From positions 40,549-104,548 of the forward strand of contig WYER01000012.1 of NCBI GenBank assembly GCA_009903795.1: a stretch of DNA of 64,000 nt. Reading direction: 5' to 3'. The position numbers were made by a program, and so were the translations under genes. Shown here in pieces: positions 49,843 to 53,017 of this stretch. The DNA is from Nitrososphaerota archaeon. Its GTDB lineage: Archaea; Thermoproteota; Nitrososphaeria; Conexivisphaerales; UBA164. The notes under the pieces were generated by a model. It was not told where the DNA came from, did no database searches, and was given only the letters and a program-made list of their open reading frames with translations. How positions within the stretch are numbered: the first letter of the stretch is position 1; each line of letters starts with the position of its first letter.

Positions 49843-51165
49843 ATGCCGTATTTCAGGATTATTTATTTTAACCAAATAAAAGAAGAAGAATTAAGAAAAA
49901 TAATGGAACGGTCTAAAAATGAAATTTTCAATTTAAAAAAAGATGTAGCGAACATTATAGAAGACGTCAAGAACCGAGGCGACAAAGCTATAACAGATTA
50001 TTTATCATCCGTTTATGGGAAAAAAGTTAACGCTTCAGAGCTTATCGTTAGCGAAGAAGAATTAAAGAAAGACTACTTATCTTTATCCCAGGATCTTAAA
50101 AACAGTTTAAAATATATGATAAAAAACGTAACTAAATTTCATAAAAGACAGATGCCAAAAGAGTTTCAAATACAGACAGATAAGGGTGTCTTTGCAGGAA
50201 TGTACTTTGTACCTGTTAATTCTGCTGGCTTATATGTTCCATCAGGAAAGGGTAGTTTTCCATCTGTTGCCGTGATGCTTATTGCTCCTGCTAAAGTCGC
50301 TGGTGTTAAAAGGATAGCTTTAGCTACACCACCTGTTGATAAAGAGATGCACATAGATAAAGCTACAGCTGCTGTAGCATACATGATGGGAGTGAAAGAA
50401 GTTTATGCTGTTGGTGGTGCGCATGCCATAGCAGCTTTTGCTTATGGCACAGAAACTATAAAGAAAACAGATATAGTGGCAGGACCTGGAGGACCTTATA
50501 CATTTTTAGCGAAAATGATCGCTTGTGATTCTGTAAAGTTTGATTTACCTGCAGGGCCTTCTGAAGGCATGATACTCAGTGACGGAAACGCAGATCCTGA
50601 AGTTGTAGCGTGGAATTTAGTAAACGAGGCTGAACATGGTCCAGATTCAGCGGGGGTTCTTGTGACAACCTCAGAAGAATTTGCAGCTAAGGTCTCACAG
50701 TATGCAGACCTAATAATAGAACAGCTACCAGAGCCAAGGCGTTCTTATATGATTGAAAACACAAAAAAATACAGCGCAATAATAATTTTTGATAATTTAA
50801 AAGACGCAGTTAATTTTGTAGCAGAATATGCACCAGAACATCTTTCTATAGAAAGCATGAGGGCAGAAGAAATTTTTAAAGAATACAAGAAAGATATTAA
50901 GGCAGGAACGATTACTATAAATACGCCGTTTTCTGCGGGTAACTACGGCATAGGTCCTAACTCAACACTTCCTACTATGGGATTTGCAAGATCTTATTCT
51001 GGACTAAACGTTTACAATTTTCTAACATCAATAACTATTGAAAAAATAAACCAGGAGGGTTGGAAAAGAATGAAAGATCACGTAATTCGACTTGCAAACT
51101 ATGAAGGGTTTCCAGCTCATCTTGGCGCTATGAAAATTTCTGAAAAGAGGTGGAAAAATTCTTGA
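49843..51165 (+). CDS. hisD: Histidinol dehydrogenase
   Basis: HisD catalyses the last two oxidations of histidine synthesis, using NAD and zinc. Conserved stretches are VNSAGLYVPSGKGSFPSVAV, IVAGPGGPYTFLAK and NEAEHGPDSAGVLV with a zinc-ligand His. The later EYAPEHLSIES contains the catalytic Glu-His pair. The 440-residue length is standard. It overlaps the hisC start, so histidine genes are at least partly clustered; the rest of the pathway is not in this window. Confidence 0.96.
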   Translation: MPYFRIIYFNQIKEEELRKIMERSKNEIFNLKKDVANIIEDVKNRGDKAITDYLSSVYGKKVNASELIVSEEELKKDYLSLSQDLKNSLKYMIKNVTKFHKRQMPKEFQIQTDKGVFAGMYFVPVNSAGLYVPSGKGSFPSVAVMLIAPAKVAGVKRIALATPPVDKEMHIDKATAAVAYMMGVKEVYAVGGAHAIAAFAYGTETIKKTDIVAGPGGPYTFLAKMIACDSVKFDLPAGPSEGMILSDGNADPEVVAWNLVNEAEHGPDSAGVLVTTSEEFAAKVSQYADLIIEQLPEPRRSYMIENTKKYSAIIIFDNLKDAVNFVAEYAPEHLSIESMRAEEIFKEYKKDIKAGTITINTPFSAGNYGIGPNSTLPTMGFARSYSGLNVYNFLTSITIEKINQEGWKRMKDHVIRLANYEGFPAHLGAMKISEKRWKNS

Positions 51166-52244
51166 GCTGGAAAGCCAATTTAAAAAAATGGCATATAACG
51201 CCTGTTTATAAATCTGGTATTTCAGCAGAAGAAGCGAAGAAGCTAGTTGGGGATAAACATTTTTTAAACCTGCAATCAAACGAGAATCTTTTTGTTCCTT
51301 TAGAGTTCATAAAAAAGCTTGCAGTAAAGGCGCTTGAAAACATTGACTTAAGGTTGTATCCAAAAGAAGTAACAAACAAACTCACAGAAAATTTAGCTAA
51401 ATTAAACGGCGTAGATGAAGAAAGCGTTATATTATCTCATGGAGCTGATCAGATGATAGAGTTAATCTTCAAAATGTTTGAAGGAAACGCAAAAATTTTT
51501 CTCCACAACCCTACTTATTCATATTATAAAATAGCTGCCATAAATTATGGTCTAACCGTAATAACAGATGAATATGTTAACGAAACGTTATTAAACATAA
51601 AATCTATACAAGAAAACTCGCCAGATCTAGTATTTGTCTGCAACCCTAACAACCCAACCGGTCATATAATTCCCAAAGAACAGATAAAGGAACTTTTAGA
51701 TAACAGAAATTTAGTCTTAGTCCTCGATGAAACATATGCGGAAATTTCTGGCGTAACCAACAACGATCTTTTTCATAATTATGATAATCTAATAATTTTA
51801 AGAACCTTTTCAAAAGCTTATGGATTAGCTGGGCTTAGAATTGGTTATGCTTTAACCCAAGGAGAGCTCGCTAAAGTTCTTAGAAAGCTTCAGTCTCCAT
51901 TTCCTGTTTCTTCGTTTTCTGCATCAGTCGCACTCGAGGCCTTAAAGAACACAGAAGAATTCAAAAGATACTGGGCCGAATCATTAAAGACAAGAGAGTG
52001 GTTTGAGAAACAGCTTGATGAAGAAATATTGAAAAGCAAAAGCGCATCTTACTTTATTACGCTTTCTTTTAAAGTAAGCGCAGAAGCTGCTTTTATCGAA
52101 CTGCTTAAGCACGGTTATATAACAAGGGTTATAGAGCCGTTTGGAAGGTTTTTAAACCCATTAAGGATGAATATGGCTCCTAAGAATCTTATAGAAGATC
52201 TTCCTCATTTAATAAACAACATCAACAAAAAATATAGTGAATAA
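51150..52244 (+). CDS. hisC: Histidinol-phosphate aminotransferase
   Basis: HisC is a PLP-dependent fold type I enzyme that makes histidinol phosphate. Signatures include SHGADQMIELIFKM, VFVCNPNNPTGHII, DETYAEISG, and the PLP lysine in RTFSKAYGLAGLRIGY. The length is 360-364 residues. The track starts at GTG 51150; TTG at 51162 overlaps the hisD stop and is equally good. The pairing with hisD supports histidine rather than another aromatic aminotransferase. Confidence 0.93.
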   Translation: MEKFLSWKANLKKWHITPVYKSGISAEEAKKLVGDKHFLNLQSNENLFVPLEFIKKLAVKALENIDLRLYPKEVTNKLTENLAKLNGVDEESVILSHGADQMIELIFKMFEGNAKIFLHNPTYSYYKIAAINYGLTVITDEYVNETLLNIKSIQENSPDLVFVCNPNNPTGHIIPKEQIKELLDNRNLVLVLDETYAEISGVTNNDLFHNYDNLIILRTFSKAYGLAGLRIGYALTQGELAKVLRKLQSPFPVSSFSASVALEALKNTEEFKRYWAESLKTREWFEKQLDEEILKSKSASYFITLSFKVSAEAAFIELLKHGYITRVIEPFGRFLNPLRMNMAPKNLIEDLPHLINNINKKYSE

Positions 52245-52284
52245 TGTTTTGTTTGTAGAACCTCAGATTAATTGATTAGTAACG

Positions 52285-52290
52285 TTTATA
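52285..52290 (+). promoter_or_regulatory. TATA-like element of the acidic microprotein gene
   Basis: TTTATA, followed by a T run, lies about 38 bases before the ATG at 52326. A transcript beginning near 52313 would then carry the GAGG ribosome-binding site at 52318-52321. Confidence 0.5.
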
Positions 52291-52325
52291 TTTTTGGTTT
52301 AAGCCTATCCTAAACGCGAGGAAAA

Positions 52326-52433
52326 ATGTCAGACGAAGAGTGGGAAGAAGACGAAGAATGGGAAGAAGACTGGGAAGAAGATGAAGACTGGGAAGAGGAA
52401 GAGTGGGAAGAAGATTTAGAAGAAGAACTATAA
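52326..52433 (+). CDS. Acidic tryptophan-repeat microprotein (35 aa)
   Basis: The ORF is too short for the supplied track. It encodes MSDEEWEEDEEWEEDWEEDE and continues to EEEL. Of 35 residues 26 are Asp or Glu and five are Trp, spaced 4-6 apart. There is no Lys, Arg or His. A GAGG ribosome-binding site lies five bases before the ATG and a TATA-like box at 52285. I know no family for it. Its charge suggests a mimic of nucleic acid or a binder of a basic protein; this is inference. It is the only gene in the hisC-tsr3 gap. Confidence 0.72.
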   Translation: MSDEEWEEDEEWEEDWEEDEDWEEEEWEEDLEEEL

Positions 52434-52489
52434 ACTCAAATCGTTTAAAAAATATTTTTTGTAAAAACGCGTAACAGCAGATTTTTTAA

Positions 52490-53017
52490 TCAAATTCTAA
52501 AATATTCAACGTATTTTTCAGATACTTCTTTTTCTGCTGAGACTATGTCATTACTTTTCCTATAAACTTCAAGAGCTCTTTGGTTAAGCTTTATGAAATT
52601 AGGCCCCCATTTAAATTTACTTAACAAGGTTTCTGCCAGTTGTATATTGTTCATTATGTATACAACAGCAGCAAGAGCTTCTGCTGTCGAAAGCATATGT
52701 GGCCTAGCATAATTTATTGGATTAGCAGCGATAAGTAATGGTAGCCTTCTTGCATAACGGTTTAAAAACTTCATCCCCCATTCTTCTCTTTTTTTCCAGC
52801 TTGCATCTATGGCTGTAATTCCTTTAAGGGAATAAATAGCTTCATCTTCAGGCATTTGTTTTATTAGTATCTCGCTAAATGGATTTAAGACAATACCAAC
52901 AGGCTTGCTAGTAAAGACAACCAATCCAAACTTCTTTAATTTTTCAGCAGTACATTTTTTAGGATCATCTTGTTCAAAAGGTATAACGAAAAGCCTAGGT
53001 TTTTTATGCGACTCCAT
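52490..53017 (-). CDS. tsr3: Tsr3-type rRNA aminocarboxypropyltransferase (DUF367)
   Basis: This enzyme transfers the aminocarboxypropyl group of SAM to a hypermodified small-subunit rRNA uridine. The family segments KCTAEKLKKFGLV, ITAIDASWKK, RRLPLLIAANPINYARPHML and LSTAEALAAVVYIM are all present. The 175-residue length is typical of archaeal members. It is the downstream gene of a two-gene unit with dph6, 40 bases away, both acting on the translation machinery. Confidence 0.93.
   Translation of the reverse strand: MESHKKPRLFVIPFEQDDPKKCTAEKLKKFGLVVFTSKPVGIVLNPFSEILIKQMPEDEAIYSLKGITAIDASWKKREEWGMKFLNRYARRLPLLIAANPINYARPHMLSTAEALAAVVYIMNNIQLAETLLSKFKWGPNFIKLNQRALEVYRKSNDIVSAEKEVSEKYVEYFRI

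Follow-up and report, generated by a model that had tools for sequence, protein, structure and literature searches.

The window, that is, the whole stretch of 64,000 nucleotides that was analyzed, contains one acidic, tryptophan-rich open reading frame (ORF), which lies between hisC and tsr3. The features of this locus are as follows.

51150 to 52244, plus strand: hisC, the upstream neighbor (best NCBIfam match TIGR01141, 252 bits, under the curated cut-off of 276.55)
52285 to 52295, plus strand: TATA-like box TTTATATTTTT, belonging to the microprotein gene (invariant in three species apart from a single base at the upstream edge)
52298 to 52325, plus strand: conserved leader with a putative start site and the Shine-Dalgarno GAGG (cross-species conservation)
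52326 to 52433, plus strand: acidic-Trp microprotein gene, 35 amino acids (direct reading; orthologues at the matching site in the genomes G003 and G004; codon-wise conservation)
52490 to 53017, minus strand: tsr3, the convergent neighbor (PF04034 and PF04068)

Read directly from the ATG at 52326 to the stop ending at 52433, the microprotein is MSDEEWEEDEEWEEDWEEDEDWEEEEWEEDLEEEL. The composition given in the initial annotation was confirmed: 26 of the 35 residues are Asp or Glu, five are Trp and none is Lys, Arg or His. The Trp residues were said to be evenly spaced, but their real spacing is 6-4-6-5. The GAGG does precede the ATG, although by four bases (52318–52321) rather than the five first counted. 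The proposed TATA-like box is conserved across three species, and from its spacing a short 5′ UTR and a start site of the gene may be placed in the leader. It was also correct that the gap between hisC and tsr3 (52245–52489) is otherwise empty, as no gene besides the microprotein was found there. Sixty dinucleotide shuffles of the 64 kb window produced no match to an acidic-Trp ORF, and pattern searches of the source genome for a paralogue matched nothing beyond the locus itself. Downstream, the nearest co-directional gene is 1.8 kb away. On the strand of the microprotein gene, no structured RNA (z 0.49), Rfam match, intrinsic terminator or sigma-70 type promoter was found. The N-terminus of tsr3 matches PF04068, the Fer4_RLI domain, which is present in ABCE1 too. 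This domain is thus common to Tsr3 and ABCE1, and the microprotein adjoins tsr3 in the window genus and ABCE1 elsewhere, which is possibly a coincidence.

The DNA of the microprotein is an imperfect tandem repeat, and chance slippage therefore needs to be considered. Two sister species of the same genus (G003 and G004) have the orthologues MSNEDWEEDEDWEEDEDWEEDEDWDEDLEEEEEL and MSEDDWEEDEDWEEDEDWEEDEDWDEDLEEEEEL at the matching place, with only the tsr3 side visible in G003, where the contig stops before hisC. A third species of the genus (G002) has MFSAEEDWEEDWEEEDWEEDWEDEDYEEEGEEEEF between hisC-like and DUF711-like genes, both named by sequence alone with no search; here, a different gene adjoins the ORF ahead of tsr3, so that the adjacency to tsr3 is not kept. 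In the three species that have the tsr3 arrangement, promoter and leader are identical in 44–46 of 48–49 columns, and the sequence of the window up- and downstream of these columns is only about 50–60% alike to that of the other species. Between G003 and G004, nine synonymous and three nonsynonymous changes were counted (pS 0.77, pN 0.033). Eight close pairs taken from the broader set showed, in sum, 51.5 synonymous changes on 86.6 sites and 9.5 nonsynonymous changes on 690 sites, a nonsynonymous/synonymous rate of about 0.02, and the differences at codon positions 1, 2 and 3 numbered 3, 1 and 58. The synonymous excess and this codon pattern indicate that the amino-acid sequence, including most choices between Asp and Glu, is kept between close relatives. 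The ORF at 52326–52433 is a real, coding and conserved archaeal gene under purifying selection. The check first suggested, conservation of the frame and a comparison of synonymous with nonsynonymous changes, does not refute the gene, and the view of a microprotein with its own expression signals stands, since frame, promoter and protein are all conserved.

No match to the microprotein was obtained in Pfam, NCBIfam, PADLOC or the PDB chains, where low complexity limits the sensitivity, and no description of the gene was found in the literature. Within the reach of the literature search the gene family is new, but binding through a linear motif of acidic and aromatic residues may be a known principle. 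A W-[DE]3..W pattern matched 20 of 300 relatives, in several families of the class, against two for the reversed pattern, and all of the matches were short acidic ORFs save two chance ones. Throughout the phylum, a related pattern matched 137 of 398 genomes, as opposed to six with the reversed control. No real example of an acidic-Trp ORF was found in the ammonia-oxidizer-like families f7 and f9–f11, which means that the microprotein is not universally needed. When the genomes of 85,462 species were scanned, the matches listed included stand-alone examples in named archaea, while most of the bacterial matches listed lay inside long proteins or in other frames. Genes of the microprotein's class are likely to be hidden by annotation pipelines and low-complexity filters. 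In one genome (G023, family f5; L191–L193), three different acidic-aromatic mini-ORFs were seen on separate contigs.

ABCE1 (Rli1) is the enzyme that splits used ribosomes. Among the matches listed in the collection scan, eight of the first loci inspected had ABCE1 adjoining or near the ORF. When 1.5–1.6 kb upstream of ABCE1 was scanned outside the window's class, a same-strand acidic-Trp ORF was found in 10 of 30, 37 of 60 and 8 of 30 regions; the resulting 55/120 is not an unbiased estimate of the linkage fraction, because regions of the first batch were ranked on their similarity to a single ABCE1, and the later batches were picked for family spread. Three more cases lie on the opposite strand, and the 58 cases together span 32 families. 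Examples of the linkage with names are MAGs of Bathyarchaeota, Thermoprotei and Desulfurococcales, and Ignisphaera. No acidic-Trp ORF was present in 400 kb of control DNA drawn from the sampled genomes of the phylum, or in 88.7 kb of tsr3 loci. The neighboring proteins were typed by Pfam and NCBIfam (RLI NF009945, THUMP, TFS-like Zn ribbon, Sua5, SurE), and ABCE1 was seen to carry Fer4 domains (Pfam). The distances from ORF to ABCE1 cluster at 58–135 nt or at about 330–510 nt, and a TFS-like Zn-ribbon gene intervenes in many of the latter cases. In family f40, probably Sulfolobaceae, the ORF precedes ABCE1 by about 50 nt. The intervening Zn-ribbon protein is of the TFS/RPB9 type, about 100 amino acids long and under the curated TFS cut-off, and occurs in several families (L198, L199, L216, L231, L263 and others). 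The ABCE1 loci of Thermococcus and Thorarchaeota have no such ORF, though acidic-Trp ORFs occur elsewhere in those genomes. An ABCE1 fused to an acidic-Trp tail was sought in genomes without the ORF, and none was found. The family has its main, and probably its ancestral, place in the ABCE1 operon of Thermoproteota.

As defined here, members of the ABCE1-linked acidic-Trp set are ORFs that stand alone, have Trp anchors, consist of Asp/Glu to 50% or more and are almost free of basic residues; the window ORF has all of these features. The acidic-Trp set comprises 80 distinct proteins of 18–68 amino acids, with 58% Glu, 12% Trp and 7.5% Asp. The 53 distinct ABCE1-linked forms end in Trp in 50 cases and in Phe in one, where about eight aromatics were expected, the related sequences not being independent. 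The aromatic residues recur with a period of five (z 6), rather than with that of a helix (z −0.1) or a strand (z 1.2). This fits an extended multivalent ligand better than an amphipathic helix, which is ruled out by the periodicity test.

The window copy lacks two features of the ABCE1-linked set: the same-strand place upstream of ABCE1 and the C-terminal Trp or Phe. None of 30 ABCE1 loci in the window's class has the ORF. In the window genome (G000), ABCE1 directly follows SurE on a different contig with no such ORF, and the window copy follows hisC. The C-terminal residue is Leu in the window copy, G003 and G004 and Phe in G002, so that the genus mostly has Leu and not Trp. The neighborhoods nevertheless suggest relocation over an independent origin. 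The order SurE-ORF-ABCE1 of family f43 compares with SurE-ABCE1 in G000; a divergent Sua5 adjoins the ORF both in f25, an ABCE1-linked family, and in f5, which belongs to the window's class; a divergent THUMP gene adjoins the ORF at many ABCE1-linked loci and is found close to it in f3, a family of the window's order. Taken together, the window copy appears to be a relocated member of the ABCE1-linked family. However, low-complexity sequence cannot prove homology, and the window's own family (f1) has the SurE link only, so the copy could be convergent. Its relocation, its own promoter and the lack of a co-directional downstream gene within 1.8 kb favor action in trans, and the window microprotein probably acts in this way.

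It is quite possible, with the balance tipped slightly against, that the window ORF encodes a trans-acting acidic-aromatic microprotein of the ABCE1-operon family and that this microprotein is an extended, multivalent ligand which binds ABCE1, alone or in complex with 30S, and aids recycling. Aromatic anchors (Trp or Phe), spaced some five residues apart along a stretch of Asp/Glu and joined by a terminal aromatic in the ABCE1-linked forms, would let the peptide dock on a groove of ABCE1, or of its complex with 30S, that is both basic and hydrophobic, and the docking may help to mature, recruit or release ABCE1 in ribosome recycling. Somewhat more tentatively, an undescribed archaeal translation factor can be envisaged, an acidic-Trp protein of 20–60 residues. 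By binding ABCE1, alone or with 30S, it would control either the splitting of ribosomes or the maturation of ABCE1, as the archaeal equivalent in function of eIF3j's acidic Trp motif or Lto1's tail. Five archaeal initiation factors have been listed (PMC5105147); a small accessory protein for the ABCE1 of archaea did not turn up in the literature searched. A gene that precedes ABCE1 in dozens of archaeal families, consists almost wholly of Glu and Trp and has Trp at its end makes it testable how the recycling ATPase is loaded, matured and released in archaea, whose initiation is far simpler than that of eukaryotes.

The N-terminal acidic motif of eIF3j docks through Trp52 on a face of eIF3b-RRM that is both basic and hydrophobic (PMC2824034), and eIF3j assists ABCE1 in recycling (PMC7196836). 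An extended acidic peptide centered on Trp and a basic face with a hydrophobic pocket are what eIF3j/Hcr1 and the proposed interaction share; however, eIF3j is larger, with further domains and one key Trp, whereas the 35-residue window ORF has no further folded domain, and homology between the two is not detectable. To our knowledge, eIF3b is not found in archaea. Lto1, part of the Yae1-Lto1 adaptor of Rli1/ABCE1, is similarly dedicated to ABCE1 and has a conserved C-terminal Trp or Phe, but it has a deca-GX3 domain and the partner Yae1; the window microprotein has no Gly at all and hence no deca-GX3 motif. DSS1/SEM1 is likewise a small acidic protein with Trp-containing acidic motifs, but is longer, with fixed motifs, a C-terminal helix, and the proteasome and BRCA2 as partners; the microprotein showed no link to these. 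Acidic leader peptides of the MgtL type are also short acidic ORFs ahead of a gene, whereas the window copy is without a downstream target and the microprotein sequence itself is selected. The C-terminal tail of archaeal aP1 is acidic with a hydrophobic end and binds ABCE1 among others (PMC6791870), but lies within a folded ribosomal protein and has a Leu/Phe-Gly motif instead of Trp repeats. Since the defining features of eIF3j, Lto1 and the aP1 tail are absent, these are likenesses of action only.

As a sub-case of an ABCE1 partner, the microprotein could be an adaptor for the Fe-S maturation of ABCE1, with a terminal Trp like that of Lto1 and the CIA clients. The C-terminal Trp or Phe of 51 of the 53 ABCE1-linked forms and the Fer4 domains of ABCE1 agree with this; maturation of Rli1 requires the C-terminal Trp of Lto1, which is Phe in some organisms (PMC4523923), and the client motif of the CIA system is [LIM]-[DES]-[WF]-COOH (PMC10623007). 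However, only the last two positions of this motif fit the ABCE1-linked forms, in which position −2 is Glu or Asp and never Leu, Ile or Met. With the deca-GX3 motif absent, the archaeal counterparts of the full targeting complex not established and the window genus without a terminal Trp, the adaptor role seems unlikely.

In an equally doubtful reading, the microprotein would shield basic proteins of chromatin or the ribosome, either as a general acidic chaperone or as a mimic of nucleic acid, and its linkage to ABCE1 would be mere co-regulation with translation genes; a gene neighborhood can reflect shared regulation without contact. The extreme acidity and aromatic anchors resemble the acidic-aromatic segments of histone chaperones, for example the acidic domain of APLF (PMC9328677), and the gene is near tsr3 in the window genus. 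Yet, this adjacency is not kept in G002, and no linkage to chromatin genes was seen, as against ABCE1 in 32 families. The initial annotation had suggested a DNA/RNA mimic, an anti-factor or a binder of basic proteins from chromatin or the ribosome. Of this, only the broad notion of a ligand for basic surfaces remains likely; the recurrent genomic partner is ABCE1 and not chromatin genes.

The ORF could also act in cis as a leader peptide, whose acidic stretch destabilizes or pauses ribosomes during translation and so tunes ABCE1 expression to the recycling capacity, as in MgtL/mgtA. It lies on the same strand, often 58–135 nt ahead of ABCE1, and many ABCE1-linked relatives do have a gene directly downstream. 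Acidic nascent chains are known to destabilize ribosomes, and the ABC-F protein EttA acts there, MgtL included (PMC11282234; PMC9718836). A cis role is distinctly improbable, however, given a window without a co-directional gene for 1.8 kb, the Zn-ribbon gene that intervenes in other loci, the lack of RNA structure or an Rfam match on the microprotein gene's strand, and Trp positions and a terminal Trp that are kept.

Mimicry of the acidic C-terminal tail of the stalk protein aP1, by which the microprotein would compete with or substitute for the ribosomal stalk, is very improbable. The aP1 tails are acidic with terminal hydrophobic or Phe residues (KKEEEVDLSGLSGMFGF; SEEEALAGLSALFG), and their ligands are EF1A, EF2, IF5B and ABCE1 (PMC6791870), but the microprotein has no Leu/Met-Phe-Gly pattern and is based on Trp, not on Leu. 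That the ORF is a purine-rich repeat open by chance, non-functional as a protein, is hardly credible and largely refuted: although the DNA is a degenerate tandem repeat, the 3/1/58 codon pattern with its rate of about 0.02, the conserved promoter and the 137 genomes matched against six with the reversed pattern all speak against it.

Some variants of the acidic-Trp proteins were also seen. Family f32 (L385–L392) has acidic-Trp microproteins with a short basic N-terminus, e.g., MSRRKTPPK, away from ABCE1, and several of them share a recurrent neighborhood. Acidic-Trp ORFs in Thermococcus MAGs (L094, L126, L132) have a PPKKKK-like N-terminus, and the ABCE1 loci of two such genomes are without them. 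In G586 (L397, minus strand, about 1455–1685), an ORF of 76–84 amino acids has close Cys pairs, zinc-finger-like, and an acidic-Trp tail of the same kind; it is possible that this Cys-pair protein is a fusion that could name the partner process.
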